Origin: Vampirovibrio sp.
GTDB taxonomy: Bacteria; Cyanobacteriota; Vampirovibrionia; Vampirovibrionales; JAJTHC01
Assembly: GCA_024998755.1 (NCBI GenBank)
Contig: JACEUU010000003.1
Coordinates: 620,001-684,000 of the forward strand
Length of the DNA: 64,000 bases
Direction: 5' to 3'
Positions 24,297 to 54,893 of the stretch are shown in pieces. How positions within the stretch are numbered: position 1 is the first letter of the stretch; each line of letters opens with the position of its first letter. The notes beneath the pieces were generated by a model. That model did no database searches. It had not been told where the DNA came from and worked only from the letters and a program-made list of their open reading frames with translations. Made by a program: the position numbers and the translations under genes.

Positions 24297-24563
24297 AAGC
24301 AATTAAAGGGGGTAAACTTGATTGTTTGGCATTTATTCAAGTGTTTCTTGAAAAAAAGGTAGGGATTCAAGGTTGAGCGATTTTTGCATGATTACAAAGT
24401 GGCGAAACCCTTTTAGATAAGAGGGTTTACAGGGTTTTTGTTAGGGTTTTTTACCGCCGTAAACTTGATTGTTTACCACCCATTCAAGTGCCACTTGATT
24501 TTAAGGAATTATTTCAAGACACACTTGAATTACTGGCAGAAAATCAAGTCGGTAGGCAATCCG
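24297..24563. repeat. Iteron-like block, copy 2
   Basis: Direct repeat of 7529-7790 with the same order and spacing of ACTTGA/TCAAGT boxes (for example 24316, 24337, then a second cluster from about 24463 to 24550). Homology begins at GCAATTAAAGGGGG and ends near CAATCC. On the right, the stop codon of the type IIG gene (TGA at 24544-24546) lies inside the last box. On the left it abuts the DUF3987 remnant. Confidence 0.75.
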
Positions 24564-27312
24564 TTTCGGTCTCGTTTTTCATGGGTGTGTCCGCCAACGT
24601 AGATTTTCGAATGTGATAAAGATCGAGTAAAGTATTTTTAACAGTAGGGTATAGATGAGACACTCCAAAAGAGTCAAATACTAATTGATCAAAAGCAACT
24701 CTATTTACTTCCTGAATTTCTTGCTCTAAAGGTAATACATCTCTATTGCAAACGGTTAACCAGCTTCTTTTCAGGCTTTTTTTAGTGTCCTCTGATAATT
24801 GATTTATATCCCACATCAAAAGGCTTGTCTTCATTCTTTCTGCAGATAAATCCAAAACTCCTAGACCTCTACCAAAGCCATTCGCTTCTATGAAGAATAT
24901 CCCAAGTACTGAATTCAAAAGGGCATGAGCTAAATCGATATCTAAGTTAGATTGCTTAGAAGTGAAACGGATTAAACGTTGATTTACAAATCCTCTTTGC
25001 TGCATTTTTGCAGCGAAGAGACGATCCTCTGGATTCATTCCCATCACAATATCTGCTTGTGCTTCTGTTCTCATCTCATACCAAAAACTATTAGCACGTG
25101 TTAATACTTCGGGAAGTGATTTCCCTTTTTCGTTGCATTGTGATTCGAATTGTTTAACCCAAGCAAAAGCACCTTGTTTATTCATGGATTCCAAGAACTC
25201 CATATCATCCGAGCAACAGAATGCCTGACTATCTGGTTGGGCGAAATACGCCTTAACTGTACTCATGTTTTTCAGTACGGGTCTCAAATATTCAGATTCT
25301 ATGGTGTGATTATTAGAGGGGTAGAATAACTTATCCCAACCTCTCCTTTCACCTCTTGCAATATCGAAAACGGTAGATGCTTTCACTAACTTAGTTTTAA
25401 GAAGATGAAACCAAGATATATTGGTAAAAAAGGGCATCCATGAAGAAAAACATTGGCTATGTTGTGCTATTTGTTGTTTCGTATGTAAAAAAGAAGAGAA
25501 TGTTGAATTATGAACTTCTTGTCTTAAAATCGAGCTATTGAATATATTTTGAATATCTGCCTCAATCCAATCGTCTAAGCACTTGTGCGTTTTCACAAAT
25601 AAAACATCTCCCAAAGAAGAGGAGTCTGAATTCTTACTTAAAACAATCAAGCTAGTAACAACATCAGCATTTTTAAACCATTTACCTTTTGCAGAAATAA
25701 CAACGGTCAAAATCTCAAACTTACCACGCAGACTTTTTAATAACTTTTCTCTCCAATTCGTACCAAGCCATGAATTAGAGACTATTAAACCTACTTTACC
25801 ACCCTCTTTTACTAAATCATATATTTTATGAAGAACATAAGCCCAAAGATCAGATTTCCCATCAAGACCTAAATCCTTTGCCACTGGCAAATTAGGATTC
25901 ACTGCTCCTGCATCTTCAAAGCGTACAAAAGGAAGATTAGAAACTATGCAATCGAATAAAGGTAACTCTCTTCGTATTCTCTCCCCAGAGTTCGGGTCTG
26001 TAAAAGTCAATGACTCTCGATATTCTAAAGTAAAAACATCCTTACAGAAAACTTGAACTACCTCTCCCATGACCTCGGGAAATGCTAAAGATAGCGTACT
26101 TAACTGTAAAGGTAGCTGGAATTTATCCGATGCCCAAACAGTTTTTAAACAGTCCTGAGGGCTTAACGAAGAGTTTCCTTTTTTATACTGATAAACAGCC
26201 TTTGGGATAGTCCCTGTTCCACAACAAGGGTCTAAAACCGTTCCTTCTAAATTATCTAAAGTCAGTGCAACTAATAGTTCAGCCAACTTGTTTGGTGTGG
26301 GATATTGACCTACCATTTTTCTATTAGAGATTTGTATAGATGATTCTAGTACATTCTTAAAAATTTCGTGAGGAATGGATTGTAATTCCAAAGTGCTTAA
26401 AAACTCATTGAGTTGGCAAATCCCATCCCATGCTACTTCGCCTATAAAAGCATCTAAAAAAGCAGGCTCAAATACATGGAAGAAATCACATAAGCTAGTT
26501 AGCTTTTCGAAAACAATAATTGCCTCTTCTATATTACTACCGCATTTAATTTGTTCAATTACCCTAGCTTCATCTCTAAATTGCTTAAGATAGTGGGCAA
26601 ATAAAATTCTATTCGACCAATTAATCAGTGTCGTTTTTGCAAGAATGTTATAATCAAGATCCTTAATTTTATCAGAAAAGTATTCTACTTTAGACTCCTT
26701 CCACCACTGCCCAATGTTTGCACGTAAAACAGCGTCTTTTTGAGAGTTCATTTGGATAGCATCTGCTACTTGACCGCTAAACATATCAATAATGGTTGAA
26801 ACAAGTTGATCATCAAAAAGTTCTTGAACACTCGATGATTTCAAACTGCCGAAATAAAATAAATCATTTAGGTCATCTAGTATTTCATGCAGTAAGGGTA
26901 ACCACTTATGCTTAGAAAATTGAACCTCATTCCGATTCAAAACGCCTATGGTTTCGTAAGTTTTTAAACATTCTAATTGATTTTTAGCGTCAATCTTATA
27001 CAGGCGTGCTTGATCCACATTCCAAAGTAAAAAGCTTTTTGTACCCATCCTAATAGCTTTGGCTTTTGCGTTTTCTATAAAATCCACATTGTCTAAAGAG
27101 GTGTCAGGGAATTTCAATTCCCAACCTTGATAAATTAAATTTTGGTAACTATCCCCAAACAAAATTACGTCCGGGAACAGTGTTGTCCTTCCCCCACCTA
27201 GAGAGGACTCACCCCCAGCACGTACAATTGACTTACTACGCCCTTTAGAATAAGCATTTATTTCAGAAATAACATCTATTGCCCACGACCGTTCATTTTG
27301 CTTAATTATCAT
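24544..27312 (-). CDS. Type IIG-like restriction-modification protein (N6-adenine methylase with N-terminal nuclease)
   Basis: A 922-aa single-chain protein. The N-terminus has FPDVILFG followed by YQGWELKFPD (PD...ExK nuclease pattern, residues 48-72). The middle has SAM motif I VLDPCCGTGTIPKAV (near residue 360) and the catalytic motif as CIVSNLPFVRF (near 460), where N-P-P-[FY] is replaced by N-L-P-F. A long C-terminal region probably holds target recognition. The start overlaps the stop of the preceding methyltransferase gene by 1 nt (TAATG), so both form one operon. Recognition site unknown. Confidence 0.82.
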   Translation of the reverse strand: MIIKQNERSWAIDVISEINAYSKGRSKSIVRAGGESSLGGGRTTLFPDVILFGDSYQNLIYQGWELKFPDTSLDNVDFIENAKAKAIRMGTKSFLLWNVDQARLYKIDAKNQLECLKTYETIGVLNRNEVQFSKHKWLPLLHEILDDLNDLFYFGSLKSSSVQELFDDQLVSTIIDMFSGQVADAIQMNSQKDAVLRANIGQWWKESKVEYFSDKIKDLDYNILAKTTLINWSNRILFAHYLKQFRDEARVIEQIKCGSNIEEAIIVFEKLTSLCDFFHVFEPAFLDAFIGEVAWDGICQLNEFLSTLELQSIPHEIFKNVLESSIQISNRKMVGQYPTPNKLAELLVALTLDNLEGTVLDPCCGTGTIPKAVYQYKKGNSSLSPQDCLKTVWASDKFQLPLQLSTLSLAFPEVMGEVVQVFCKDVFTLEYRESLTFTDPNSGERIRRELPLFDCIVSNLPFVRFEDAGAVNPNLPVAKDLGLDGKSDLWAYVLHKIYDLVKEGGKVGLIVSNSWLGTNWREKLLKSLRGKFEILTVVISAKGKWFKNADVVTSLIVLSKNSDSSSLGDVLFVKTHKCLDDWIEADIQNIFNSSILRQEVHNSTFSSFLHTKQQIAQHSQCFSSWMPFFTNISWFHLLKTKLVKASTVFDIARGERRGWDKLFYPSNNHTIESEYLRPVLKNMSTVKAYFAQPDSQAFCCSDDMEFLESMNKQGAFAWVKQFESQCNEKGKSLPEVLTRANSFWYEMRTEAQADIVMGMNPEDRLFAAKMQQRGFVNQRLIRFTSKQSNLDIDLAHALLNSVLGIFFIEANGFGRGLGVLDLSAERMKTSLLMWDINQLSEDTKKSLKRSWLTVCNRDVLPLEQEIQEVNRVAFDQLVFDSFGVSHLYPTVKNTLLDLYHIRKSTLADTPMKNETETDCLPT

Positions 27313-28202
27313 TATAATTTAACAACCCTTGGATTGCCACCACAAGAGAGAAGACGCTCTTTCGCAATGGAAATAAAATCGATTTCATGGTCTTTAAATC
27401 TATGTGATTCTTGGTTAAGTTCTATACCACAATAACGACGACCTTCTAAATGTGCTGATACTAAGAAAGAACCACTACCAAAAGTATTATCTAAAACAAT
27501 ATCCCCTTTTTTGGTAAAAGTTCTAATTAAATAGCGACCTAGTTCTACTGGTTTTTGAGTTGGATGCCAAACCATTCTTTCCTTCTCACTTTCAGCTGTT
27601 TTAAAATAGATAACATCCGTTGGATAACGCAAACCTTCACTTTTTACATGGCATGGTTCAAAATCACCGTAACTACCTGACAGTTGATTTTTTCTAATCC
27701 CCTTATCATAAGGACTTCCTGAACTCATTTGAGGTTCATAGTAGGGAGGCTTGTTATAAAAAATGCAAATATCCTCATGCTTTCTAAGGGGCTGCTTTTT
27801 TGCATTTAAAAAATTAGTTGCTTTAGACTTTTCCCATACAATTTTATACTTAAACCATTGCTCATTAGATAAAATCAGTTTAGCTGTAAAAATACCTTGG
27901 GAAGTTAAGGCAATAACACCATTAGGCTTTATAATTCTTTTATACTGATACCATAGTTTTTGAAGGTCAATAACAGAATCCCATTTATTTTGAGTCGTTC
28001 CATAAGGCAAATCACATAGAATAAAGTCCATACAAGAATCGGGCAATCGTTCCATCAATTCTAAGCAATCAGCTTGAAAAAGAACATTTTCATAATCAAT
28101 AGAATTTTCTGTAACAAAAGAAGATCTAATAGCATTATTAGGAATTAGAAGAGGTACTGCCATTTTTTGCAACTTCACATTTTGTTTGATAAGAACGACC
28201 AC
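27312..28202 (-). CDS. Site-specific DNA methyltransferase, beta class (N6-adenine or N4-cytosine)
   Basis: The 296-aa enzyme has the catalytic motif first (ILCDLPYGTTQNKWD, a D-L-P-Y variant of D-P-P-Y, near residue 66) and the SAM motif last (VLDNTFGSGSFLVSA near residue 242, then GIELN), the order of beta-class methyltransferases. WHPTQKPVEL lies between them. It starts with GTG at 28202; an in-frame ATG at 28163 is an alternative. It is coupled to the type IIG gene downstream and probably protects the same or an overlapping site. Confidence 0.88.
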   Translation of the reverse strand: MVVLIKQNVKLQKMAVPLLIPNNAIRSSFVTENSIDYENVLFQADCLELMERLPDSCMDFILCDLPYGTTQNKWDSVIDLQKLWYQYKRIIKPNGVIALTSQGIFTAKLILSNEQWFKYKIVWEKSKATNFLNAKKQPLRKHEDICIFYNKPPYYEPQMSSGSPYDKGIRKNQLSGSYGDFEPCHVKSEGLRYPTDVIYFKTAESEKERMVWHPTQKPVELGRYLIRTFTKKGDIVLDNTFGSGSFLVSAHLEGRRYCGIELNQESHRFKDHEIDFISIAKERLLSCGGNPRVVKL

Positions 28203-28361: not shown

Positions 28362-31202
28362 CTAATCGACACCTTCCACAAAAGTCAAAAAGAAATTGAT
28401 AATTTTTTCAATAACCCGCTCTGCTATCGTTTTTCGATTCCTTAAACTAGGAGGCGTTTCCATTATAGCAATGACCTCATCACGCATCGGTGGCTTGTTA
28501 GTATAAAGGTAATTGCTGTGGAGCTTCTCTAACCCTTTTAACGCAAGCCCCTCTTCTTTACTAAGGGCAATGAGTGCATTTTGTTTGGCTTCATCCCAGT
28601 AAGCGTCAAACGCTTCACGAATATCCGAATGAGGAGAAATAAACGCTAGATATTCCGACATAAACCGCTCAATCAGTTCTTTTTTGCTCCGTAATTGAAT
28701 AGTAGAATCCAAAACATCCATAATATTTTTACGAATGCTTGCTTGTTCTTCAGGTGGTTTACCAACCATTGCACCAAGCAAGTTAATAATATAACTCACG
28801 TTGATACTATCCCGACTAATCAACTCCATTTCAAAATCAATATCGTTTAAAATAGAAACTTTCTCTGTTTGCTTCTCACTTTTTACCTTGTCGTGAAGAT
28901 CCAAATACTTACTTCGAAAATCCGCAAATAGTTGTTCATCAATGGGTAAATCATCAAACGTAAATTCGGTAAAACATTCCAACACATTTTTTACACGAAT
29001 CACTTCACGAAAAGCTTGTATAAACGAAAGCTCCTCTTTCTCCGTTTGAAGTGCATCAACACTAGCTGCATTAGGCGTGATGTTAAGAAGGTTTGTAACG
29101 GCTTCTTTGAACTTTTCCAGATACGATTCATAAGGGGCAATGACGACGGCTTCAGGAGCATCTTTGTTGGCAAATAACGTGATAGCCTCATCTGTAGCGG
29201 GCTTTAAATTACGGAAGCAAACAACATTCCCCTGAGATTTCAGTTGTTTGAATACACGGTTAGTACGGGAATAAGCCTGTAGCAACCCATGAAACTGTAA
29301 ATTTTTATCCACATAAAGGGTGTTTAATGGTGGGCTATCAAACCCCGTTAAAAACATATTCACCACCAGCAAAATATCAATCTGTTTTTCTTTAACCCGC
29401 TTACCAATATCCTGATAATACTGATAAAATAGCTTACTATCCTTTGTAGAATAATTAGTGGCAAATAGGGCATTATAATCTTGAATATAAGCGTCTAGTT
29501 TTTCTCTGCTGTGTTTGTTGATTGGGGCATCGTCATCAGGTAGTTCAGCCCCTGTAGCCATACCATTGGCATCCGCATCTTCTTCATTGGCTTGATAAGA
29601 GAAAATAGTCGCAATTTTTAGAGTGTGTTCGCCTGCTTCTTTTTTTGCCTTAAATAAATCATAATAGTAGGAAAGGGCTTTAACGCTTGAAACACAAAAC
29701 ATGGCTGTAAATTGACGGTCGTGGGTTTTACGGTTGTGGTTAGCAATAATGTAGTTTGCAATGTTGGTTAACCGTTCAGGGGCATCCATCACTTCGGCGG
29801 TATCAATGGCTTCCACATCAATATCTACAATATGATCTTTCTGTTTGAAGGTACGAATGTATTCCACCGAAAACTTTAAGACGTTCTCATCTCGAATGGC
29901 ATCCGTAATTAAATAAGTGTGAAGCCGTTGTTCGAATAAATCGGCTGTTGTTCGCTTCCCTGCATCGGTTTTAGCGGCGTTTTCGGCTAAGATAGGCGTA
30001 CCCGTAAAGCCAAACATCTGCACATTATTGAAATACGCCTTAATGCGTTGATGCGTTTCGCCAAATTGACTACGATGACACTCATCAAAAATAAAGACCA
30101 TCCGCTTCTCTTTTAACCCTGTCATGGTGGCTAAGTAATGGTTTTTAGTAATAGCCGTATTCAATTTTTGCAGGGTGGTTACAATCAGCGGAGCATCGCT
30201 TGAAAACTGTTTTACTAGCTGAGCCGTATTCGTTGTGGCATCGACACTACCTTCTTGAAAGCTGTTAAATTCTTTAATGGTTTGGAAATCTAAATCTTTT
30301 CTATCCACCACAAATACCACTTTATGGACATGAGGGCTTTGCGTTAAAATTTGGGCGGTTTTAAACGATGTAAGCGTTTTGCCTGAACCCGTTGTGTGCC
30401 AAATATAACCGTTTTTGGTAGTGTTTTTAACGTGTTCCACAATGGCTTCAACGGCGTAATACTGGTACGGACGCAACGCCATAAGTACCTGCCTACTTTC
30501 GTTTAAAACCACATACTTTGTAACCAGTTTGGAAAATTGACATTTTTCTAGAAAAAGCGTGGCAAATTCACTGAGTTGAGAAACCCGTTTATTGTCAAAA
30601 TCCGTCCAGTAGAAGGTTTGTTTGTAATCTCTTGCGGTAACGGGGGTATTAGCGTAATACTTGGTATTAACGCCATTGCTAATAACAAACAACTGAATAT
30701 AGCCAAATAAGCCCGCCCCAGCCCCAAAGCTATGCCGATGGTATCGATTGGTTTGGTTGAAGGCTTCTTTCAGTTCAAGCCCTCGTTTTTTTAGTTCAAT
30801 TTGACACAAGGGTAAGCCATTAACCAGTAACGTAACATCATACCGATTTTTATAATTATCGCCTTCCATGGTTATTTGATGCGTTACTTGGTACTGGTTT
30901 TGACACCACTGAATTTGGTTGATTAAATCAATGTAGCCCGTCGTGCCGTCATCCTTGGTGTAATCAACCTTGCCCCGCAATGTTTTCGCTTTTTCAAAAA
31001 TGTTGCCACGGCTTAGTTTGTTGAGAATTTGTTTAAATTCATACGCTGAAAACAATCGGTTGTTATGGTGTTCCAACTGCTTTTTTAGGTTGGTAATTAA
31101 ATCCGCTTCGTTGGCGATGCTGACCTTTTCCCAGCCCAAGGTTTGCAGTTGGTCAACTAATTCGGCTTCTAGTTGTGCTTCGCTTTGGGTGGTGTTGGTC
31201 AT
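28362..31202 (-). CDS. hsdR: Type I restriction-modification ATPase/endonuclease subunit (locus 2)
   Basis: HsdR of 946 aa, of the EcoR124I-like branch judged by general layout. RYDVTLLVNGLPLCQIELKKRG (nuclease D...ExK) is near residue 130; Walker A WHTTGSGKTLTSF near 265; DECHRSQFGE (motif II) near 355; GFTGTPI near 395; a conserved LTGFDSPPLNTLYVDK region near 620. Its start overlaps the Abi_C gene by 4 nt (ATGA). It ends the leftward locus; 28203-28361 downstream shows no gene. Confidence 0.94.
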   Translation of the reverse strand: MTNTTQSEAQLEAELVDQLQTLGWEKVSIANEADLITNLKKQLEHHNNRLFSAYEFKQILNKLSRGNIFEKAKTLRGKVDYTKDDGTTGYIDLINQIQWCQNQYQVTHQITMEGDNYKNRYDVTLLVNGLPLCQIELKKRGLELKEAFNQTNRYHRHSFGAGAGLFGYIQLFVISNGVNTKYYANTPVTARDYKQTFYWTDFDNKRVSQLSEFATLFLEKCQFSKLVTKYVVLNESRQVLMALRPYQYYAVEAIVEHVKNTTKNGYIWHTTGSGKTLTSFKTAQILTQSPHVHKVVFVVDRKDLDFQTIKEFNSFQEGSVDATTNTAQLVKQFSSDAPLIVTTLQKLNTAITKNHYLATMTGLKEKRMVFIFDECHRSQFGETHQRIKAYFNNVQMFGFTGTPILAENAAKTDAGKRTTADLFEQRLHTYLITDAIRDENVLKFSVEYIRTFKQKDHIVDIDVEAIDTAEVMDAPERLTNIANYIIANHNRKTHDRQFTAMFCVSSVKALSYYYDLFKAKKEAGEHTLKIATIFSYQANEEDADANGMATGAELPDDDAPINKHSREKLDAYIQDYNALFATNYSTKDSKLFYQYYQDIGKRVKEKQIDILLVVNMFLTGFDSPPLNTLYVDKNLQFHGLLQAYSRTNRVFKQLKSQGNVVCFRNLKPATDEAITLFANKDAPEAVVIAPYESYLEKFKEAVTNLLNITPNAASVDALQTEKEELSFIQAFREVIRVKNVLECFTEFTFDDLPIDEQLFADFRSKYLDLHDKVKSEKQTEKVSILNDIDFEMELISRDSINVSYIINLLGAMVGKPPEEQASIRKNIMDVLDSTIQLRSKKELIERFMSEYLAFISPHSDIREAFDAYWDEAKQNALIALSKEEGLALKGLEKLHSNYLYTNKPPMRDEVIAIMETPPSLRNRKTIAERVIEKIINFFLTFVEGVD

Positions 31203-31828
31203 TCTGTTTCTAAATCCTGTTCTAAATTATAGTCCCCAAGTAATATTTCATATGTTTCGGGTTCTTGCTCAAAAAGGGCTTTACTGTATTTTACTTTGGC
31301 GTGTTCTGTTTGGTAACGTTCATCTAGGTAAATGTTAAAGGCTTCATTGTCATCATATTCTAAAACGGATTCTGCTAAATAGTCTAGCCGTTTAAGCATA
31401 TAGGTACACAAACTTTCCGTTATACCAATGATAAACTCTGCGAAATCTGCATCGTTTACTTGCTCTTTTAAAGAAGCCCTGCCATGCCCAATATCAGAAT
31501 GTTTATTGCGAAGTTCTCCAATGCACTGAACGACTGATCCTGCTCTCTTACATAAGTCAAAATCAGAAAAACCACGACCCTCTTGAAGCCTTCTTAAGGC
31601 ATCTTTAAAAAGCGTCTGTAGGTCAGTAGATTTATCTAAAACTTCTATTTTTTCTTTGGCTAGAACGTGGAGTGATAGTTTGGAGATTCCTTCAATAAGG
31701 GCTTTACAGGTTTCTATACTAATATCGGGCTTTTCTTCGATATTTTGTTCTATTATTTCAAGATGGCTAAGGTAATATTCAAGCCGATGCTTTTTAACTC
31801 GACGGATTTCATTTTTGAGCTTTTGCAT
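31199..31828 (-). CDS. Abi_C-domain protein (abortive infection C-terminus type)
   Basis: A 209-aa helical protein whose C-terminal part carries GELRNKHSDIGHG (Arg107 to His115), the pattern of the Abi_C family found in abortive-infection proteins; the R-N-x-x-[HS] element also resembles HEPN-type active sites. It lies between hsdS and hsdR, 9 nt after hsdS and overlapping hsdR by 4 nt, so it is an integral part of the R-M operon. I infer a back-up growth-arrest function triggered when restriction fails; the sequence alone does not show it. Confidence 0.75.
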   Translation of the reverse strand: MQKLKNEIRRVKKHRLEYYLSHLEIIEQNIEEKPDISIETCKALIEGISKLSLHVLAKEKIEVLDKSTDLQTLFKDALRRLQEGRGFSDFDLCKRAGSVVQCIGELRNKHSDIGHGRASLKEQVNDADFAEFIIGITESLCTYMLKRLDYLAESVLEYDDNEAFNIYLDERYQTEHAKVKYSKALFEQEPETYEILLGDYNLEQDLETE

Positions 31829-31837
31829 TATTAAACC

Positions 31838-32998
31838 CTACACAAACAGTTGTTGGAGCAAGCCTTTTTTGAAGGCTTGGGCGTGTTGGATGGCTTGGGC
31901 GGTTAAGCTAATTTTAGCATCTACCGCCGAGAGGCAGGCGGCTATTTTTTGTTGTTCTTCGGGGTGGGGAAATGAAATAGACATTTTTGAAAGCGTACCC
32001 ATAACTATATAAGGCGTGTTTCCTTCTTTCACTTCGGAAAAAATGCGTTTTTTCAAATGTTGATGCAAGTAGTGTTTTACAAATTGAATATTATGTTTAA
32101 AAGCGTCTAAAACATAGGTTCTTTGGTAAGCATTAAATTGACCATTATAATAATGAATATATCCGACATTAGCCCCATTGCCTGATATTAAGAGAGCCTC
32201 AGTGTTAAAAGCAGGTGTATTAATTCTATATACATCACGAGCACAAGTAAAAAACGGATAAATACCATTTATTACCATTGCATTAGCGTCGAGAGCTCCT
32301 GTTGTGATGTTGCAATGTTTACCTAATACGCTGTCTTCCCAAGCGGGGTAGGGGGAGCCATTGGGTTGGGTGAACCGAAGGGCTTGTGAAAACAGTTGTT
32401 GCATTAACCCCTTTTTGTAGGTTTGTAGCAGGGTGTGCTTTTGTTGCAAGTGGGCAATTCTCGCATCTACGGCGGTTAGGAAGCTGGCTATTTTTTGTTG
32501 TTCGGGGAGGGTGGGAAGGGGGAGTTTTAAAAGATTTATATCTTTTATGGTGAAGCCTTTAATTGATGTACCTTGAGATAGTGATATTAATTTCACTTTA
32601 TGCCTTAGTAACCAGTAGGCTATAAAAAAAACATTATCTTTTTTAGGTGTAAAGTTAGTAAAATCTTGACTTGTACAAAGCTCTTGTAGAGTTACCGCCA
32701 ATTTGCCCACACCTACCCTAGAGATGAGTAAAATACTATTTGAGGGTATAATTTTTGTTGCTGATTCTTTAACGGCTATTTTAGTTATAAATCTATTTGT
32801 ATGAATTGTGTGCAGATTATCTTCTTCAATATCAGAACTAGAAATCCAAGGTATATTACCAGACCAATAATGTTCTATTGAAGTATCAGGAGTTCCACCA
32901 CCACGGAATTCACCTAGGCTAGTAAAAGGTTTTTCTTCCCACTCCCCGCTAAACTCAGGGAAGCGAAGGGCGGGGGTGAGGGGGTTTTCTAATACCAC
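31838..32998 (-). CDS. hsdS: Type I restriction-modification specificity subunit (locus 2)
   Basis: HsdS of 386 aa. The start is the GTG at 32998-32996, which overlaps the hsdM stop by 1 nt (TAGTG) and gives VVLENPLTPALRFPEF, the usual opening of this subfamily; a longer reading from 33058 would run back into hsdM. Two target-recognition domains each end in a conserved PEQQKIASFLTAVDARIAHL-like helix (near residues 165 and 350). The locus order is hsdM, hsdS, Abi_C, hsdR. Confidence 0.93.
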   Translation of the reverse strand: MVLENPLTPALRFPEFSGEWEEKPFTSLGEFRGGGTPDTSIEHYWSGNIPWISSSDIEEDNLHTIHTNRFITKIAVKESATKIIPSNSILLISRVGVGKLAVTLQELCTSQDFTNFTPKKDNVFFIAYWLLRHKVKLISLSQGTSIKGFTIKDINLLKLPLPTLPEQQKIASFLTAVDARIAHLQQKHTLLQTYKKGLMQQLFSQALRFTQPNGSPYPAWEDSVLGKHCNITTGALDANAMVINGIYPFFTCARDVYRINTPAFNTEALLISGNGANVGYIHYYNGQFNAYQRTYVLDAFKHNIQFVKHYLHQHLKKRIFSEVKEGNTPYIVMGTLSKMSISFPHPEEQQKIAACLSAVDAKISLTAQAIQHAQAFKKGLLQQLFV

Positions 32999-34602
32999 TA
33001 GTTTTTCTCCTGTTGCAGTGTGCTTGCAAAGGGCGTTGCAATGCCTAATTCCGCACAAAAACGGGCAATGGTGGCATCTGTTTCCACCAGTTGCGTTTCC
33101 AGCCCTGCCAAGGCGTGGGCTACGGCGGTTAAATCCACCGTTTCTTCGGCTTCAAAGGTATCCACATAGCGGGGAATGTTCAGGTTATAGTCGTTTTCCG
33201 CTATTTCACTCAATGGGGCAACGTAGGCGTATTTTTCAATGGTTTTGCGTTGTTTGTAGGTGTGTATAATTTGTGAAACATGGGCATCGGTCAACACGTT
33301 TTGATTGCCTTGTTTCTCAAACTCTTTAGAAGCATCAATAAACAGAATGTTTTCGCTATGTACACGGCATTTTTTTAATACCAACACACAAGCGGGGATA
33401 GAAGTACCGTAGAAAATGTTGGCGGGCAACCCAATCACGGCATCTAAATAATTTTGTTCCCGAATAATATATTCCCGAATCGTGCCTTCGGCTGCTCCTC
33501 TAAACAACACGCCATGGGGTAGCACAATGGCGGCTGTGCCGTTTTCCGCTAGTTGATGAATAATGTGTTGCACAAAGGCAAAATCCGCTTTAGAACTTGG
33601 GGCTAATTTACCATATTGGCTGAATCGGTCATCTGTTTCATTCAGGGGGTTATCTGAACCCTTCCACTTGGCTGAAAACGGCGGGTTGGCAACAATGGCT
33701 TCAAAGCGTCTATCTTTGTGGGCGGGTTCTTCTAGCGTGTCTTCCTGTTTAATATCAAAATGGCTATAATGCACATCGTGCAAAATCATATTCATGCGGG
33801 CTAGGTTGTAGGTGGTTCGGTTGAGTTCTTGCCCAAAAAATTCGCTCACTTCCGCTTCTTTGGCAATACGCAACAATAACGAGCCTGAGCCACAAGTGGG
33901 GTCGTACGCACTACGGATTTTAGTTTTATCCAACGTAACCAGTTTGGCTAAAATTTTAGAAACTTGTTGAGGCGTGTAAAATTCGCCCGCCTTTTTCCCA
34001 GCACCAGAAGCGAATTGCCCAATCAGGTATTCGTAAGCGTCGCCTAGCACGTCGGATTCTACTTGGTCTAACTGGAAGTCAATGGCATCTAAATGGGTTA
34101 ATACTTTGGCAATCAGGGCATTTCTAGCTTCGGCGGTGCGTCCTAATTTGGTGCTGTTTAAGTCAATATCTTCAAACAGTTTATTGAAGTCGTCTTCGCT
34201 TTCGTTGCCCATTGTGCTTTGTTCAATGTCGTTTAAAATGGTCTGTAATTCATCTAAAATAAAATTGTCTGTCGCTTCAGGATTGTTTCCATCCACTTTA
34301 CCATTGCCCTTTTTGCTAATGGCACTAAATAGTTGTGTGGGTTTAAGAAAGTAGCCTAATTTTTCCAAAGAGTCTTCTGCAATATATTTGAGGTCTTCCT
34401 CATCTTGCACCAAGGTATAGTCTTTAATGGTTTCTGTTGCTAGTAATTTATTGGCATAGATGCATTGTTTTTCAGATAAGTACTTGTAGAAGATAAACCC
34501 TAAAATGTAGTCTCGGAATTCATCAGCATCCATTTTTCCCCGTAGTTCGTTGGCAATTTTCCATAATTGGGCTTCTAGCTTTTGCTTCTGTTGTTCAGTC
34601 AT
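32998..34602 (-). CDS. hsdM: Type I restriction-modification methyltransferase subunit (locus 2)
   Basis: HsdM of 534 aa, distinct from the copy at 14182. The N-terminus (LEAQLWKIANELRGKMDADE, ILGFIFYKYLSEK) is typical. The SAM motif AYDPTCGSGSLLL is near residue 235 and the catalytic IVANPPFSAKW near residue 310. It is the first gene of the leftward operon. The different subunit types of the two loci mean they were acquired separately. Confidence 0.95.
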   Translation of the reverse strand: MTEQQKQKLEAQLWKIANELRGKMDADEFRDYILGFIFYKYLSEKQCIYANKLLATETIKDYTLVQDEEDLKYIAEDSLEKLGYFLKPTQLFSAISKKGNGKVDGNNPEATDNFILDELQTILNDIEQSTMGNESEDDFNKLFEDIDLNSTKLGRTAEARNALIAKVLTHLDAIDFQLDQVESDVLGDAYEYLIGQFASGAGKKAGEFYTPQQVSKILAKLVTLDKTKIRSAYDPTCGSGSLLLRIAKEAEVSEFFGQELNRTTYNLARMNMILHDVHYSHFDIKQEDTLEEPAHKDRRFEAIVANPPFSAKWKGSDNPLNETDDRFSQYGKLAPSSKADFAFVQHIIHQLAENGTAAIVLPHGVLFRGAAEGTIREYIIREQNYLDAVIGLPANIFYGTSIPACVLVLKKCRVHSENILFIDASKEFEKQGNQNVLTDAHVSQIIHTYKQRKTIEKYAYVAPLSEIAENDYNLNIPRYVDTFEAEETVDLTAVAHALAGLETQLVETDATIARFCAELGIATPFASTLQQEKN

Positions 34603-35350: not shown

Positions 35351-37834
35351 TTAAGCGTTTAATACGTCGGGGTTTATGTAGATAAGTTCTTTGGGTCTGC
35401 CTATGGTGGATTCTTTTACCTGTTGCACTATACCATGAGCTTCTAGCACCTCTACCGCTTGCCTGACTGCTTCAGGCGTGTTTAATCCTGACCACGCTTT
35501 ATGGTATACCTCCCGAAGCGTAAAGGGGTTGTTGAGTTGCTTTTTCTTGATGCGATTTAACAGGCGTTCCGCTGAATCCGTCGGGCTGTTTTCGCCTAGG
35601 CTATAAATGCGTCGGGCGTGTGTTCTTAAATAGGCATCCCATTTCAAGGCTTTTTCTAAGGCGGTTAAAGTTACCGCTCCGTTGCCGTTTTCTGCTAAAT
35701 GAGTAAGCAAAGCCAACGTAGGGATGAGGCTTCTATATTTAGAAAAATGAGCAATCAGGGCGGGGTGTTCTTCGCTACTACGGATTTCATGTTCCAGTTG
35801 TGAACGCCAGTCGTCAAATACCCGTTGGGCTTCTTCTGTAAAGCGTAAGATGGGGAATTTTGCCCCCTCTTCTAAGGTTGCCCCGCATTGATTAAACTCC
35901 AAGGCGTGTAGGCGGTGTATGGTGGCAAATGCTGCTTCTTGCATGGCTTTATTGGGATATTCGTCCACATTTTTCCAGTTGGGTGAAATATCAGGGAACA
36001 CGCCTAGTTGAAAGCGTTGTAACAAGCCATCATTACCACTGCCATTAGATAAGGCTTGTCGAATATAATTGGTTAATGGGCTAGGCTGTATGCCTCCTAA
36101 AATAGACACACACACGGATTCAATATCTACAGTACCTCGTCCAATACGGTCATAAGTAAAGCCTTTATCGCCATTCCATGCTTCTAAATAAAAGGCTCTA
36201 TCCAGTTCATGCCCTGTTTTTTCCATACTATTAAAGAACCCTGTTAGCTCATCTCGAAACATTAAAACGCCGTTTGGATTTTCAGACAGAATTTCTCCCA
36301 ACTTTTCCACGGTGGTATCATTCACAATAAACCGTTTACGGTGTGGTGGGTCTTCCTCCATTGCTTGCAAACTTGCCATAATGGTTTCCATTGGGTCTTC
36401 GTTCTTCTTCAATGATCTTTTAACGCCTTCTTTCAACTGCTTTTTTTGTTCTTCTTGAATCATCTGTTTGGCTTCCCAAGCCTTCAATGCCTGCTTGTGT
36501 TGGCTTGCCCCCGCTTTTTCTAACGTTTCTAAGGCTCGCATGGGTTCACGAAGCGAAGGGGTTTTCATCACACTAGGAGGTCCGACAATCATTCCCCATA
36601 GATTAGGGATCACAAGCCAGTCATCTTTGCGTTTGGGCATGATGCCAATTTTTCTACCCGCTACGGTGGCAAGTACAACCATTGCCCCCACGGCAATATA
36701 ATCAATCGGGCATTGAATACGTTCACTACAATCTATCAGCCATAAACGAAGCGAATCAGGTAGACATTCTACGGGAAAAGGGGCTACTTCTAACATTTTT
36801 TTGCTTAACGGGAGGCTGTCTTCCCACTGTAGGAAGCCTGTAGTTTCGGGGGATTCCGTTCTTAATGCGGTAGCCTCTCCACGATACCCCCCACTAAAGC
36901 CGTTTAGTAAGGTGTTGATCGTTCTATCTCGATAATCCTTGCGTGTTTGCCACTTTTCCCGTTGACCTAAAGCCGACTGATTAAAGAGTGCTTCCATTTG
37001 AGACGCATCGCCATTTGTCCACCACGCTAAGTTGTTTAATAATGCCAAATCTGCACGGCTTTCGTCGTTACCATGTCTTGAAATATCGCCATGCCATAAC
37101 GCTTGAATATCTGTTCCGTGGGTACTTTGAAACATTTTTTCTAGCAAGGCATGGCTAGAAAGTTGGGAAAGATTGGCTTTATTTGTTGGGGGGTTAAAGG
37201 GGACGGTTAGTTTTTCTAATGATTTTGGAAAAAATTTTTCATAGAGATGGTTTAAGGCTTCTTCTCCATCGGCTAAAATCAAAGGGGCATCCTGAAAACG
37301 GTCGGCTGTAAAGGCAATGAAGCGATCTTTTTCGTAGAGTTCAATATGATGCCCCGAAGGCAAGTTCCATCGATTTCTTCGTTGACCGATAACGCCTTTT
37401 AAAAATAAATGTAACCCCTTTCCTGATTGGCTGATTTCTGTAAATGTTGCGGGTATGATTGCTAAAATAGGTAGAACCCATTCAAGTGGCTGTTTGTTTT
37501 CATCAAGTGCGTTGTCTAAATCAACCACCACAATGCCCGATGCAAGGCATAGCCCCAAGCCCTGCAAATGAGGGAACTTGGTTTGCCATGCCTCTAATGA
37601 ATCCACAAAATTGAACCATTGTTTACCATCTTTTACACTGCAATTCATACCTGTGTTAGGAGACGTTGGTAATTTATCCCACTTGCCCCTTTCAGGGTTT
37701 AATACAGTACGGTATAAAATCCATTGTGAAAGCGTTTGTAGCTGTTGTGGTGTGTTTTGTGTATAATTTTTGTACTTATTTATGTTAATTAAGCCAGTAG
37801 TTTCCACCTGCTGGCTTTTTTTATATTCTGTCAT
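35351..37834 (-). CDS. Primase-polymerase / DUF3987 helicase-like replication protein
   Basis: An 827-aa protein. Residues 20-190 resemble the prim-pol N-terminal domain of mobile-element primases: VVVDLDNAL (DxD), TEISQSGKGLHLFLKG, then HIELYEKDRFIAFT. Residues 330-730 are DUF3987, with a Walker-A-like GPPSVMKTPS near 395 and an acidic FRDELTGFF near 535. A winged-helix-like C-terminus follows. Such proteins start replication of phage satellites and integrative elements. It heads the leftward module downstream of a 58-aa ORF (6-nt gap) and an HTH gene. A DUF3987 remnant at 23821 marks an older copy. Confidence 0.85.
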   Translation of the reverse strand: MTEYKKSQQVETTGLININKYKNYTQNTPQQLQTLSQWILYRTVLNPERGKWDKLPTSPNTGMNCSVKDGKQWFNFVDSLEAWQTKFPHLQGLGLCLASGIVVVDLDNALDENKQPLEWVLPILAIIPATFTEISQSGKGLHLFLKGVIGQRRNRWNLPSGHHIELYEKDRFIAFTADRFQDAPLILADGEEALNHLYEKFFPKSLEKLTVPFNPPTNKANLSQLSSHALLEKMFQSTHGTDIQALWHGDISRHGNDESRADLALLNNLAWWTNGDASQMEALFNQSALGQREKWQTRKDYRDRTINTLLNGFSGGYRGEATALRTESPETTGFLQWEDSLPLSKKMLEVAPFPVECLPDSLRLWLIDCSERIQCPIDYIAVGAMVVLATVAGRKIGIMPKRKDDWLVIPNLWGMIVGPPSVMKTPSLREPMRALETLEKAGASQHKQALKAWEAKQMIQEEQKKQLKEGVKRSLKKNEDPMETIMASLQAMEEDPPHRKRFIVNDTTVEKLGEILSENPNGVLMFRDELTGFFNSMEKTGHELDRAFYLEAWNGDKGFTYDRIGRGTVDIESVCVSILGGIQPSPLTNYIRQALSNGSGNDGLLQRFQLGVFPDISPNWKNVDEYPNKAMQEAAFATIHRLHALEFNQCGATLEEGAKFPILRFTEEAQRVFDDWRSQLEHEIRSSEEHPALIAHFSKYRSLIPTLALLTHLAENGNGAVTLTALEKALKWDAYLRTHARRIYSLGENSPTDSAERLLNRIKKKQLNNPFTLREVYHKAWSGLNTPEAVRQAVEVLEAHGIVQQVKESTIGRPKELIYINPDVLNA

Positions 37835-37840
37835 TTTGGG

Positions 37841-38017
37841 TTAATCCTTCTGCATTTGGGGAAGGGGTTTAAATTGGTTTTGGCTTGTCCAATGACTTAA
37901 AAAAGTTAGCAATTGACTGATGCTAGATTTTATTTCCGTAACATCTGAATCAGACAATGGTTGTGGGTAGTAGGGTTGCCAAGCCTCCCGAATACCTTCA
38001 TGGCTAAGCGAGTTCAT
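37841..38017 (-). CDS. Small 58-aa ORF between the HTH gene and the primase
   Basis: This frame (MNSLSHEGIREAWQPYYP at its start, ISQLLTFLSHWTSQNQF in the middle) has an AGGAGG ribosome site 9 nt before its ATG and ends 6 nt before the primase ATG. Its start overlaps the HTH gene end by 14 nt in another frame. The tight packing and strong ribosome site support a real gene that also couples translation to the primase. Function unknown. Confidence 0.68.
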   Translation of the reverse strand: MNSLSHEGIREAWQPYYPQPLSDSDVTEIKSSISQLLTFLSHWTSQNQFKPLPQMQKD

Positions 38018-38237
38018 GGGACTGCCCTCCTTGTTGATTCTTGGGCTGTCTCATTTCTTCTAACAGACGGTTTACATCTTCTTGTCGAATGAGATAGTGT
38101 TTCCCAATACGAACGGCTTGTAAAATACCCTTACGAATATATTTTCTCACGGTGTATGGTGTCATCCATAGTTGCTTGGCAACCTCTTCGGTATTTATAA
38201 ACAATGTATTTCCCTCATAAATCATTCTAATAACCAT
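38004..38237 (-). CDS. Excisionase-type helix-turn-helix protein
   Basis: A 77-aa protein with a MerR/excisionase-like HTH: FINTEEVAKQLWMTPYTVRK, then YIRKGILQAVRIGKHYLI, the DNA-binding domain common in element-borne Xis or regulatory proteins. It is transcribed leftward, divergently from the XRE gene at 38365, and starts the module HTH, 58-aa ORF, primase. It could direct excision with the serine recombinase or regulate the primase. An internal ATG 12 nt downstream is an alternative start. Confidence 0.85.
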   Translation of the reverse strand: MVIRMIYEGNTLFINTEEVAKQLWMTPYTVRKYIRKGILQAVRIGKHYLIRQEDVNRLLEEMRQPKNQQGGQSHELA

Positions 38238-38268
38238 TTGACAATATAAAGCATACGATAATCATATA

Positions 38269-38297
38269 TTGACACGCAAGGGGTTTTTTACTATGAT
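38269..38297 (+). promoter_or_regulatory. Sigma-70-type promoter for the XRE repressor gene
   Basis: TTGACA (38269-38274), 17-nt spacer, TATGAT (38292-38297): a near-consensus promoter in the divergent region between the HTH and XRE genes. A direct repeat ATTCGGTTA/ATTCGGTAA follows at about 38318-38335, a candidate operator. This is the control switch of the intact element. Confidence 0.75.
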
Positions 38298-38364
38298 GTG
38301 TTGTAATGCGTTATCGATTCGGTTAATTCGGTAATGGATGAGAAAAAAGGAGGTTAATTGTTGT

Positions 38365-38748
38365 ATGGAAGCCTATGAATTTGGACAAAAAATAAGAGAG
38401 AGGAGAGAATCTCTCGGTATGTCGCAACACCAGCTTGCGGCTAAAATTGGTATTGATCAAGGTAAGGTCTCCATGCTAGAAAAAGGAGCAAGAAAAATAG
38501 ATGTTGTAAAAGAGTTACCTATTTTAGCAAGGGCTTTGAATTGTTCTGTAGGATGGTTTTACGACGAAAAAGGGGATTCTGTTCCCGCCCACGCATTGGT
38601 GAAACAGTTTTTCCCCGATGTGGAGTTTTCAGAACTAGACTTAAAAAGAGTTGCAAAATTTATTGAACCCATTGTGGAAAGCTATGTAAAAGCAGACCCT
38701 GCCCTTAATGAAAAAGTGCTTAATCACAATAAAGTATCAGGAGAATAA
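38365..38748 (+). CDS. XRE-family transcriptional repressor
   Basis: A 127-aa protein with an N-terminal HTH (SLGMSQHQLAAKIGIDQGKV, then SMLEKGARK) and a C-terminal helical segment. I use the ATG at 38365 because AAGGAGG (38347-38353) is 11 nt upstream; an in-frame ATG at 38338 lies before that site. It faces the HTH/primase genes, as in a lysogeny-type switch, and is followed by the recombinase-linked genes in the same direction. Confidence 0.85.
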   Translation: MEAYEFGQKIRERRESLGMSQHQLAAKIGIDQGKVSMLEKGARKIDVVKELPILARALNCSVGWFYDEKGDSVPAHALVKQFFPDVEFSELDLKRVAKFIEPIVESYVKADPALNEKVLNHNKVSGE

Positions 38749-38751
38749 ACC

Positions 38752-39393
38752 ATGATGACCTCAAAAGAAGCACCCCCCAGTCTCTTAACAAAAATCGTCA
38801 ACCTTCAAGAAGTTCGGGAGTAAAAAGAAGGGCAACAAAAACTTTTTGAAGTACAAGAACAATACGTTCCTTATTCCCTATTTGAAAAGCAAACGAAAGA
38901 GATGAATCGCTTATTCTCCCGTACTCAGAAAGAATTAAAGACCTCTAATTCCCAAGTGGAACGGTTAGCCACATCATTGGAACGTTTAATCCCTGAACTA
39001 ACAGATAAGGCTATTGATAATTATGAGCCGATGTTAAGGGTTGGGGTATTAGAATCAGGGGTAAAGGCGGATGTAGCAGTTGTAGATGGAGCTTCTGTTC
39101 CCTCAGAACAGGTGTACACGTTACTGTCTAACAGTATTGTAGAAAAAATAGGGAAAGATAAATTCACGGCTTCTCAATTAGGAGGTATTTTGAAAGCACT
39201 GAAAATCAAAGGAGATTCGACCTTTCATTATGAAGTAAAAATTGGTAAAAAGTCCTCTGCACAATGTTATAAACCTAGCGTTATTAAAGAGTTGTATCAT
39301 CGGTTAAAAAATTATGAAAAATACGGAATTACTCAAGAAAAAGCCCTCAAATGGCAATCCTATCTAAAGCCCGAAAGTGAGGTTATTCAATGA
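38752..39393 (+). pseudogene. Recombinase-upstream gene with an in-frame TAA
   Basis: ATG ATG at 38752 follows an AGGAG site and opens a frame that continues to 39393 except for one TAA at 38821-38823, after QEVRE. A single CAA-to-TAA change would explain it. The uninterrupted product would be 213 aa with a coiled-coil-like middle (LKTSNSQVERLATSLERL) and a basic C-terminal part. Reinitiation at ATG 38902 could still yield 163 aa. The 3' end overlaps the recombinase start by 4 nt. Family not recognised. Confidence 0.6.
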
Positions 39394-40709
39394 AAAAGGC
39401 GGTTTTATATGCCCGTGTTTCAAGCACGGCTCAAGAAAAAGAAGGGTTCTCAATCCCTGCACAAATTAAACTACTGAAAGAGTATGCACTCAAGCATGAT
39501 TACATCATTGCCCAAGAATTTACCGATGCTGAAACGGCTAAAAAATCAGGGCGTACTAACTTTAAAGCCATGATGGATTTAATTCATAAAGACAAAAGTA
39601 TCAAAACCATCTTGGTTGAAAAAACGGATCGTCTAACCCGAAATTTTCAGGATTATGTGCTGATTGACGAGTTAATCGCTCAGTGTGATATTGAAGTCCA
39701 CTTGGTGAAAGAAAATGAAGTCCTCAGCCAACGGGCTAAAAGCCATACCAAACTCATTCACGGGATTAAAGTGGTATTAGCTAAAAACTTCATTGATAAT
39801 CTGAGTGAAGAAGTTTCCAAAGGAATGCTTGAAAAAGCAAAACAGGGACACTGGCCGAGTCGGGCACCCTACGGCTATAAGAACAACCCAACCACACGCT
39901 TCATAGATGTAGACCCTATTCAATCTGCCTATGTTAGAAAAGCCTATGAATTGTACGCAATCGGGGGTGTTTCATTAAAAGGTGTTGTAGCTCAACTCTA
40001 TCGTGAAGGGCTTCGTTTTCGTCCTGCCACTGCCAAGCCTTCCCTTAGTAATCTTCACCACATTTTAACCAATCCCTTTTATTACGGACGCTTTGTTTTT
40101 AAAGGACAAGCCTACATCGGTAAACATGAACCACTCATATCCGCTTCACTGTTTCAAGAAGTCCAACGCAATCTAAAAATTGCAGGAAAATCCGACTATG
40201 AAAAACGAACCGTCGCCTTTGCAGGTCTTATTAAATGCGGACACTGTGGCGGGTCTGTTACAGGCGACATTAAAAAAGAACGCTATGTGTATTATCGTTG
40301 CGGACATCATAAACAAAAATGCCCCGATAAATACATCCGTGAAGAAGCCCTCGAAGTACAATTTGAACACCTCGTGGCAAGCCTACGAATGACACCTGAA
40401 CAAAGCGTTTGGATTCGTCAAGCCTTAAAGGAAGTTAATCAAACCAAAGAAGTTGAAATTAACGAACGGCGAGATACCATCCAAGTTGAAATTAAACGAT
40501 TAGAAAATCGACTGAATCGGTTGTATGAAGACAAATTAGACGGCGTTATCAGCGAGTCATTCTATCTAATGAAGTCCGCTGAATATAACGCTCAAGTGGC
40601 TGATTTAAATGGTACTTGGGAGAAATTATCCATTGTAAATGAAGACCAAATTCGCCTAGGTCTAATGATTATCGATTTTGCAACCAACACAGTGCAAGCG
40701 TTTAAATAA
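39390..40709 (+). CDS. Large serine recombinase (integrase of the element)
   Basis: A 439-aa site-specific recombinase. The resolvase domain starts YARVSSTAQ (catalytic Ser11) and continues with EKTDRLTRNFQDY. The recombinase domain (APYGYKN near residue 155) is followed by a zinc ribbon (KCGHCGG near 285, RCGHHKQKCP near 310) and a coiled coil (KRLENRLNRLYEDKLDG). It sits 132 bp from the tRNA-Glu 3' end, which it probably uses as attachment site. A TAA splits off the usual C-terminal tail, which is read as the next ORF. The 3' 630 bp are duplicated at 9322. Confidence 0.93.
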   Translation: MKKAVLYARVSSTAQEKEGFSIPAQIKLLKEYALKHDYIIAQEFTDAETAKKSGRTNFKAMMDLIHKDKSIKTILVEKTDRLTRNFQDYVLIDELIAQCDIEVHLVKENEVLSQRAKSHTKLIHGIKVVLAKNFIDNLSEEVSKGMLEKAKQGHWPSRAPYGYKNNPTTRFIDVDPIQSAYVRKAYELYAIGGVSLKGVVAQLYREGLRFRPATAKPSLSNLHHILTNPFYYGRFVFKGQAYIGKHEPLISASLFQEVQRNLKIAGKSDYEKRTVAFAGLIKCGHCGGSVTGDIKKERYVYYRCGHHKQKCPDKYIREEALEVQFEHLVASLRMTPEQSVWIRQALKEVNQTKEVEINERRDTIQVEIKRLENRLNRLYEDKLDGVISESFYLMKSAEYNAQVADLNGTWEKLSIVNEDQIRLGLMIIDFATNTVQAFK

Positions 40710-40895
40710 ATGACTATGTTCGAAAAGGCTGAGTTGCTTAGGATACTCGTTTCGAACTTTTCCCTACAGGGTGGAGAAGTGCAAGTCCACTGGAAAAAAC
40801 CGTTCGATGTACTCGCTCAAAAAGACGAATATAAACAAAAATACCCCCAAGGGAATTCGAATCCCTGCCGCCTCCGTGAAAGGGAGGTGTCCTAG
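40710..40895 (+). CDS. Recombinase C-terminal tail ORF (copy 2, running into tRNA-Glu)
   Basis: The frame begins at ATG directly after the recombinase TAA, in frame, and encodes the tail motif FEKAELLRILVSNFSLQGG and KPFDVLA. Its last 18 codons run antisense through the tRNA-Glu gene. In a free element the tail would be short, so the C-terminal residues depend on the integration site. Whether it is made as a separate peptide or by readthrough cannot be told here. Confidence 0.5.
   Translation: MTMFEKAELLRILVSNFSLQGGEVQVHWKKPFDVLAQKDEYKQKYPQGNSNPCRLREREVS
40842..40862. other. Right attachment site (attR) in the tRNA-Glu 3' end
   Basis: These 21 bp, from the discriminator base of tRNA-Glu through its T-loop, are identical to 10084-10104. 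The shared sequence continues leftward into the element and stops here on the right, so the crossover lies within or at the edge of this stretch. Confidence 0.72.
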
Positions 40896-40914
40896 GCCAC
40901 TAGACGATGGGGGC
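40842..40914 (-). tRNA. tRNA-Glu (anticodon UUC)
   Basis: The minus strand folds as a 73-nt tRNA: acceptor GCCCCCA pairing with TGGGGGT (the first pair is G-T), D-arm GTCTAGTGGCCTAGGAC, anticodon arm CCTCC-CTTTCAC-GGAGG with TTC, T-arm AGGGA-TTCGAAT-TCCCT, discriminator A. CCA is not encoded. The island abuts its 3' end. The weak G-T first pair may reflect an element-supplied 3' end. Confidence 0.95.
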
Positions 40915-41009
40915 ATATGCCAGTGAAGAGTACAAGCCCTTCAACACCTTCTACCATACCCAAAGCAAAAACCCCTGTCAACACCCAATATAACCATCAT
41001 TACACCAAT

Positions 41010-41152
41010 AGACCTCTTGCATGACTAAATATCTGAGGCATCTTCGTTGTCATTTGCGGTACTCAAATCCTCATGTACTTATTTGTACACTCCGGTTTTC
41101 CGTTCCTCATTCCTAGAATCTGCACCCAGCTATTCAGCCATGTAAGCGGTCT
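41010..41152. repeat. MITE-like repeat, family B copy 1, overlapping the nadD 3' end
   Basis: The ends AGACCTCTTGCATGAC and GCCATGTAAGCGGTCT are inverted repeats. The interior (GGCATCTTCGTTGTCATTTG, ATCCTCATGTACTTATTTG, CTAGAATC) matches the copy at 54894-55071. The right end provides the last codons and stop of nadD. Confidence 0.8.
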
Positions 41153-41781
41153 ACAACAGAAATCGGCAACCGCCGTAACGCACCCAACACCCCAAAAGGC
41201 ACACAACCCGACACAAAATCCCAATCGCCCACACGCATAGCCGCACGAACATCCGTCGCCGAAACCACCATCGCCACCATCGGAACCAACCGCACCGCAA
41301 CCCCACGCTCCCCCACCCAAGGCAACGTTTTTATCGCCAACTGCTGGTCTGGACGTGGCACCACCCAAAATCGACAAACCCTAACGATGTCTTCCCACCG
41401 ATGCCAAGCAGGCAAACTAGCAAACGTATCCGCACCCATCAACACATCCACACTACCAGCCTCTAGCTCTTCGAGCGGAGCATGAAATAAGCCCTCCAAA
41501 ACCTTCGCCGTATACAACGGCTGATGTTTATTGCTACCAATGGTCTGTTCAATAGTAGAAATCGCCAAAGCAGGATTGTTAGCCTCCTGCAACGCCAGTT
41601 TCAGCAGTGAAAGCCGAATGTCAAAATCCCACAAGCCCTTTTGCCCAGACTTATTAGGCGGAGCAAGGGCAGGAACGAACAACACCTTTTCAAAGCCCCC
41701 CGCTTTTTGAGCTTCAATCGCCATGGTGAGGTGGGCATTATGAACGGGGTTAAACGAACCAAAATAAAGCAGCACCGCCAT
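41134..41781 (-). CDS. nadD: Nicotinate-nucleotide adenylyltransferase
   Basis: NadD adenylylates nicotinate mononucleotide to deamido-NAD in NAD synthesis. The 215-aa protein has the nucleotidyltransferase motif GSFNPVHNAH at the N-terminus, LFVPALAPPNKS near residue 35, MGADTFASLPAW in the middle and VSATDVRAAM (ISSTxIR motif) near the end. The last seven residues and the stop come from the right end of a MITE-like repeat, so the C-terminus has been rewritten by insertion. Next gene upstream (41810) is co-directional. Confidence 0.93.
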   Translation of the reverse strand: MAVLLYFGSFNPVHNAHLTMAIEAQKAGGFEKVLFVPALAPPNKSGQKGLWDFDIRLSLLKLALQEANNPALAISTIEQTIGSNKHQPLYTAKVLEGLFHAPLEELEAGSVDVLMGADTFASLPAWHRWEDIVRVCRFWVVPRPDQQLAIKTLPWVGERGVAVRLVPMVAMVVSATDVRAAMRVGDWDFVSGCVPFGVLGALRRLPISVVDRLHG

Positions 41782-54884: not shown

Positions 54885-54893
54885 ACTTAGTCT

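Follow-up and report, generated by a model that had tools for sequence, protein, structure and literature searches.

Among the systems closest to the integrative element described herein, which lies in a 64,000-nucleotide stretch of Vampirovibrio sp. contig JACEUU010000003.1 (positions 620,001-684,000; hereafter the window, all window coordinates being counted from its first letter), the SCC elements are non-conjugative islands that integrate at rlmH by means of a large serine recombinase (CcrA/CcrB or CcrC) and combine replication enzymes with restriction-modification (R-M) cargo. The PICMI satellites of Vibrionaceae are defined by a co-located integrase, AlpA (for which PF12728 is allowed) and DUF3987 primase; an integrase neighbor that overlaps the integrase gene (iolg, most often through ATGA) is needed for excision, and the elements, 6.7 kb on average, often have a small gene between alpA and the primase gene and possess 17-bp repeats and defence cargo (PMC10803314). 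The authors called integration at fis a hallmark and reported no complete PICMI outside Vibrio (PMC10803314). At the tRNA sites occupied by islands of the Islander/TIGER class, tyrosine integrases are about 8-fold commoner than serine integrases (PMC12884075). We consider it likely that the locus in the window is an integrative element of the chromosome, about 31 kb long, which targets tRNA-Glu and lacks transfer genes of its own. The novelty of the element lies in the combination of its parts and in its host; as a tRNA island with R-M cargo, it belongs to a common and ordinary kind.

Within 5.5 kb of the window, the profiles PF00239, PF07508, PF12728 and PF13148 all scored above the cut-off, and ATGA at 39390-39393 both ended a 163-aa gene and started the recombinase gene, matching iolg by position only. 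The small open reading frame (ORF) between the AlpA-type gene and the primase gene, the short direct repeats, the defence cargo and the lack of structural genes likewise resembled PICMI. In contrast, the element is located at tRNA-Glu instead of fis, spans 30.8 kb instead of approximately 6.7 kb, resides in Melainabacteria instead of Vibrio, and carries a divergent XRE gene. As judged from the genes, the gene arrangement of the module follows that of a PICMI-type satellite core, but the module is no PICMI member. It also shares with the SCC elements the large serine recombinase, the replication enzymes, the R-M cargo and the character of a non-conjugative island, but has a single recombinase and another replication protein, and is inserted at tRNA-Glu rather than rlmH.

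The left end of the element was mappable, as positions 9322-10104 form a 98% direct repeat (783 bp) of positions 40080-40862, consisting of the 3' half of the recombinase gene and 22 bp of the tRNA 3' end. The alignment broke off sharply within the T-loop portion of the tRNA, exactly at the end of the copy at 10104, and the 22-bp tRNA-Glu 3' end (40841-40862) had a single further copy in the window, at 10083-10104, where none was expected by chance. The attR that a preliminary description of this DNA had placed beside the recombinase gene was thus real, and the left copies of the 783-bp repeat and of the 22-bp att sequence delimit an element of approximately 10083-40862, with 30.8 kb between the att repeats. 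It is the second unit of a tandem array, behind an older copy cut by an insertion sequence (IS). Two IS630-type copies (6412-7344 and 8391-9323) were 99% identical and inverted, the second one truncating the recombinase gene of the older element. As in the Islander/TIGER class, the insertion lies at the tRNA 3' end, the integrase gene stands beside a tRNA that was rebuilt and is whole, a direct repeat of its 3' end marks both ends, and accretion is tandem; the difference is that the entire clade of integrases here consists of serine recombinases distributed over many tRNA types. Just past tRNA-Glu, a dispersed repeat (41009-41153; ~85-88%) recurred at 54893-55072 and in a genome of the same genus (G001).

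All six module genes named in the preliminary description were found at 35351-40862, against tRNA-Glu (Table 1). The DUF3987 protein showed Pfam matches to PF13148 (E 8e-91) and to the NrS-1-type polymerase HBD (E 6e-15), together with a weak Prim-Pol match (E 0.001) below the curated cut-off. Its residues 1-300 matched solved mobile-element primases (PDB 7ola and 6a9w), and the motifs DLD, SQS..GLH and R171 were invariant across three homologs. We assign it as a fusion of a primase-polymerase with a DUF3987 helicase. It resembles the NrS-1-type PrimPol (PDB 6a9w, 7ola) as a mobile-element replication protein combining a primase-polymerase with an HBD domain, but in the scans made, only Melainabacteria genomes yielded full-length relatives with the same fusion (~40% identity). 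In IMG/VR, the primase matched one tailed-phage-like contig (L103), which has a tyrosine integrase and shares the helicase half only.

As for the smaller genes, the 58-aa ORF gave only weak matches in other genomes and no convincing family match, and the 163-aa product gave no convincing family match in Pfam and PHROGs; its fold prediction (pLDDT 49.7) was too poor for a structure search. The relatives of the 163-aa gene in other genomes stand after XRE-like helix-turn-helix (HTH) genes. In the divergent control region, the 10-bp inverted repeat spans the divergent promoter-like sites. The near-consensus promoter reported previously does exist (38269-38297, TTGACA-17-TATGAT, 11/12), but it is no evidence by itself, because the scan found six such sites against 4.8 +/- 2.0 in shuffles.

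The preliminary description had proposed that the same cassette be sought with other defence cargo in related genomes, and that a lack of conserved gene order elsewhere would speak against it. The genus is shared with a metagenome-assembled genome of Candidatus Melainabacteria, and the same six-gene order was found, also at tRNA-Glu, in a genome from another family of the order (G005; JAUIEU010000001.1). There, the recombinase, 163-aa-type and XRE genes are succeeded by the HTH_17, small ORF and primase genes in divergent orientation; identities to the window were 58% for the recombinase, 36% for the 163-aa-type protein and about 41% for the primase. Beyond the primase comes a distal pair of genes, encoding a 200-aa product and an HGG protein of 86 aa, and after it one large gene. 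Two further loci of the genome under study, L006 (at tRNA-Val) and L007 with L031, possess a recombinase of 47% identity, a related primase, which in L006 is broken, and also the distal pair. Their cargo comprises a type I R-M system accompanied by Shedu and Fic, and a type IIG/ISP R-M system of 1615 aa. Another locus of the same genus, L100, consists of recombinase, HTH_17, type III R-M, small ORF and primase. The cassette was thus recovered with other defence cargo, as the preliminary description had asked, with the limitation that the six-gene order is exact in G005 only; L006, L007/L031 and L100 keep the recombinase and the primase with cargo between them. Cargo has been exchanged among these relatives.

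Several observations on these relatives stand apart from the gene order. At one tRNA-Glu of G005 (L032 15416-16692, L029 6190-6264), a tyrosine-integrase element and a serine-recombinase element are arranged in tandem, the second carrying only the 3' 48 bp of tRNA-Glu. The distal pair, which is conserved in related elements (L031 9052-9847, L006 2347-3128, L029 12302-13170, L136), consists of a Cys/His 'HGGxSTGxKT' protein and a 159-200 aa protein without a family; the fold prediction of the 200-aa protein (pLDDT 43.3) was too poor for a structure search. Beside the L007 recombinase (1098-8653) lie a CRISPR array (~66-bp spacing), Cas1- and Cas2-like genes and a gene for a 1110-aa Cas9-family protein; the CRISPR spacers of this genome matched none of the fetched elements except for one 16-bp match at chance level.

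Homologs of the window recombinase (E <= 1e-60) were detected in 89 of the 382 genomes of the class. Among the 50 distinct recombinases with fetched surroundings, 41 had a tRNA or tmRNA gene within 300 nt of the end of the recombinase ORF, all antisense and 40 overlapping, against a chance expectation that we estimate from tRNA density at well under one of 50. The targets comprised tRNA-Arg, Ala, Ile, Asp, Asn, Gln, Ser, Pro, Glu and Val, and tmRNA, the last being abutted by one member (L062 19109-19524). Some of the exceptions proved to be internal junctions of tandem arrays (L072, L091, L092). The far end was marked by direct repeats of 17-29 bp in several elements, and in the tRNA-Arg group the shared repeat was just about 'TACCC'. 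In L064, L066, L067, L068, L075, L082, L083, L085 and L095 (tRNA-Ala, tRNA-Ile), a second serine recombinase, ~30% identical to that of the window, was encoded just upstream of the tRNA-abutting one, a pairing reminiscent of CcrA/CcrB. The literature on serine integrases at tRNA genes and on Melainabacteria islands yielded nothing describing the clade, a partial coverage that does not show it to be undescribed. The clade represents a natural enzyme set with changed tRNA targets, which is useful for studying site choice by serine integrases and possibly as a source of tools.

The payload consists mostly of anti-phage genes (Table 1). The R-M/Abi_C locus that had been suggested as the payload does lie inside the mapped element, but the payload is wider; moreover, the island is composite, as remnants of a second DUF3987 gene and of the distal pair are present. 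The tandem tRNA-Glu site shows R-M systems piling up within one lineage. Within the first type I R-M region, a repeat whose two copies are 95% identical encodes 'LSPTLSLKGEG...NPLPSGRGQGEG' at the C-terminus of hsdS (18664-18752) and at that of the next DUF559 gene (19107-19192).

Table 1. Features of the tRNA-Glu element and its boundaries (window coordinates).
Feature	Position	Strand	Basis or remark
Older tandem element, recombinase 3' half and att site	9322-10104	+	98% repeat; cut by IS630-type copy 8391-9323
attL-type junction, 22-bp copy of tRNA-Glu 3' end	10083-10104		Separates recombinase end of older element from left end of present element
Cargo: two small HTH genes, HipA (11009-12313), Fic (12462-13640)	10363-13640	+	Pfam
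Remnant of the two distal genes of related elements (for the HGG and the 159-aa protein)	13687-13989	-	DNA 94% identical to L031 across 191 bp, with further, shorter matches; 90% to L006
Cargo: type I R-M (M 14182-15726, S 17499-18761, R 19424-22585)	14182-22585	+	PADLOC and Pfam
Genes within that type I R-M: PDC-S05/RhuM-like (15728-16771), GIY-YIG, DUF559	14182-22585	+	PADLOC and Pfam
Cargo: RhuM family gene	22836-23849	+	Pfam E 5e-114
Remnant of second DUF3987 gene (3' end)	23821-24285	-	PF13148 positions 296-361, E 1e-10
Cargo: type IIG restriction-methylase (24544-27312), type II methyltransferase (27312-28202)	24544-28202	-	PADLOC E 7e-256 and 2e-65
Cargo: type I R-M (R 28362-31202, S 31838-33058, M 32998-34602), Abi_C protein (31199-31828)	28362-34602	-	PADLOC and Pfam
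Predicted primase-polymerase/DUF3987 helicase (replication protein)	35351-37834	-	Pfam, PHROGs, PDB sequence matches 7ola and 6a9w
58-aa ORF, no family	37841-38017	-	Between HTH_17 gene and primase; 14-nt overlap with HTH_17 gene
HTH_17, AlpA/excisionase-type protein	38004-38237	-	PF12728 E 1e-11; best PHROG phrog_66 'excisionase'; homolog in G005
Divergent control region with promoter-like sites and a candidate operator (10-bp inverted repeat)	38239-38297		Pattern matches
XRE-type regulator (candidate repressor)	38338-38748	+	PF01381 E 1e-11; G005 homolog E 1e-36
163-aa gene, no known family	38902-39393	+	ATGA overlap with recombinase start; homology from 38824, past in-frame stop
Large serine recombinase, 439 aa, ended by in-frame TAA	39390-40709	+	Resolvase, Recombinase and Zn-ribbon domains
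61-aa in-frame continuation of recombinase, antisense into tRNA	40710-40895	+	ORF; homolog alignment
attR core (tRNA-Glu 3' end)	40841-40862		22-bp repeat, repeat alignment
tRNA-Glu (TTC), integration target, intact	40841-40915	-	ARAGORN and Rfam, 58.6 bits

The module agrees with the replicate-switch-integrate end of a mobile island put forward in the preliminary description, its genes being identified and the att repeats mapped. In the mechanism that we favor, the recombinase would join attP, made up of the 3' end of its own gene with the last 22 bp of the tRNA, to attB at the tRNA 3' end, and the tRNA would be rebuilt on insertion because attP carries these 22 bp. The XRE protein would repress the divergent HTH_17, small ORF and primase genes. 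On derepression, the AlpA/Xis-like HTH_17 protein, possibly together with the 163-aa protein, whose gene overlaps that of the recombinase, would turn the recombinase to excision, and the primase-polymerase/helicase would then copy the excised circle. The roles suggested for AlpA, the overlapping gene and the DUF3987 primase in excision and replication follow the PICMI precedent (PMC10803314). The circle would reach other cells by machinery encoded elsewhere, most likely phage particles, and the host would retain the element for its R-M, Abi and HipA/Fic cargo.

A stronger form of this explanation specifies the transfer route and takes the element as a phage satellite, which we regard as possible though short of probable. 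Satellites are defined by their reliance on a helper phage for excision, replication and packaging. The core corresponds profile by profile to the PICMI model (PMC10803314), with the PF00239/PF07508 integrase, PF12728 AlpA, PF13148 primase, ATGA-overlapping gene and small gene before the primase; the element has no transfer genes, and the HGG protein of related elements weakly matched terminase small subunits (E 2e-5). However, neither a capsid-remodelling gene nor a clear packaging gene was found among the scanned element proteins, no helper or cos/pac site was found, 30.8 kb is large for a satellite and exceeds the ~6.7 kb of PICMI, and the recombinase query matched nothing in IMG/VR. The satellite layout of the preliminary description accordingly holds for the core but cannot be taken as fact. 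If the element is satellite-like, the gene plan of a minimal satellite, with integrase, overlapping gene, AlpA and primase, would extend from Vibrio to the non-photosynthetic sister group of cyanobacteria, and would be paired there with serine recombination.

Several points weigh against a functional element as proposed above. The cassette was not complete as initially described, since both the recombinase gene and the 163-aa gene have in-frame stops relative to their homologs. An in-frame TAA (40707-40709) splits the recombinase from its 61-aa continuation, whose ATG is the very next codon (TAAATG), and 50 of 50 aligned homologs read through this position and keep the following segment. In the 163-aa gene, homology extends upstream of the start codon and is interrupted by an in-frame TAA where its relative reads on, so that its 5' end is cut. 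In addition, the exact six-gene order is known in just one other genome (G005), whose element showed no attL within 60 kb; neither an excised circle nor an empty tRNA-Glu site was seen, the flanks in G001 lying on separate contigs without the tRNA; and, the island being composite, its cargo need not all belong to one element. This copy may no longer be fully active.

These stops, the remnants of the second primase and of the distal pair, and the IS-cut older copy are also what would be expected of a decayed, immobile defence island whose mobility module is a remnant kept with useful cargo, an explanation that we consider somewhat unlikely. The primase, XRE and HTH_17 genes, the tRNA and the att sites are intact. 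In particular, the recombinase TAA is common to both tandem copies (9949-10104 and 40707-40895 sides), and yet these differ almost only synonymously (15 synonymous changes against 1 nonsynonymous, with the last 198 bp free of differences), from which it follows that the codons before the stop were under purifying selection as the copies diverged. Either a split or shortened recombinase has been workable, or the function was lost before both copies formed; the synonymous bias favors the former without proving it. Downstream of the stop, the copies are identical over 156 bp, and a split serine recombinase is possible. A bolder proposal envisages a class-wide radiation of large serine recombinases in Melainabacteria that would have spread to tmRNA and most families of tRNA, the recombinase gene invariably terminating antisense within the tRNA, and that would drive satellite families (PICMI-type core, serine recombinase, XRE switch and R-M cargo), with a split recombinase (439 + 61 aa, TAAATG) in this copy; taken as a whole, it appears rather doubtful.

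Among the scanned proteins of the element, no capsid, portal, terminase, relaxase, conjugation or type IV secretion family was detected with Pfam, PADLOC and PHROGs, in line with the lack of structural and conjugation genes noted previously. A conjugative element was rejected on this basis, no type IV secretion, relaxase or conjugation genes being present among these proteins. An integrative mobilisable element that borrows the transfer machinery of a conjugative element would fit the size, and serine integrases and island cargo occur in such elements (PMC5357655). Nevertheless, this reading is improbable: the Pfam scans of the element proteins gave no relaxase family to support the term 'mobilisable' used earlier, oriT not having been searched for, and 132 of 142 plasmid records with a DUF3987 relative were typed as non-mobilisable. 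Although integrase, XRE/HTH switch and primase occur in phages too, a prophage made defective by loss of its structural genes is highly improbable and was rejected, as capsid, portal and large terminase genes were absent from the scanned proteins, structural genes were likewise absent from the portions read of related elements in G000, G001 and G005, and, among phage records, none matched the primase over its full length at more than 25% identity.

Elsewhere in the window, a 1.9-kb pair (2413-4331) encoding a GmrSD_N/DUF262 protein and a HEPN-like protein is located between gatC and the adenosylhomocysteinase gene. As these two genes are directly adjacent in G001, the pair looks like a small defence insertion.

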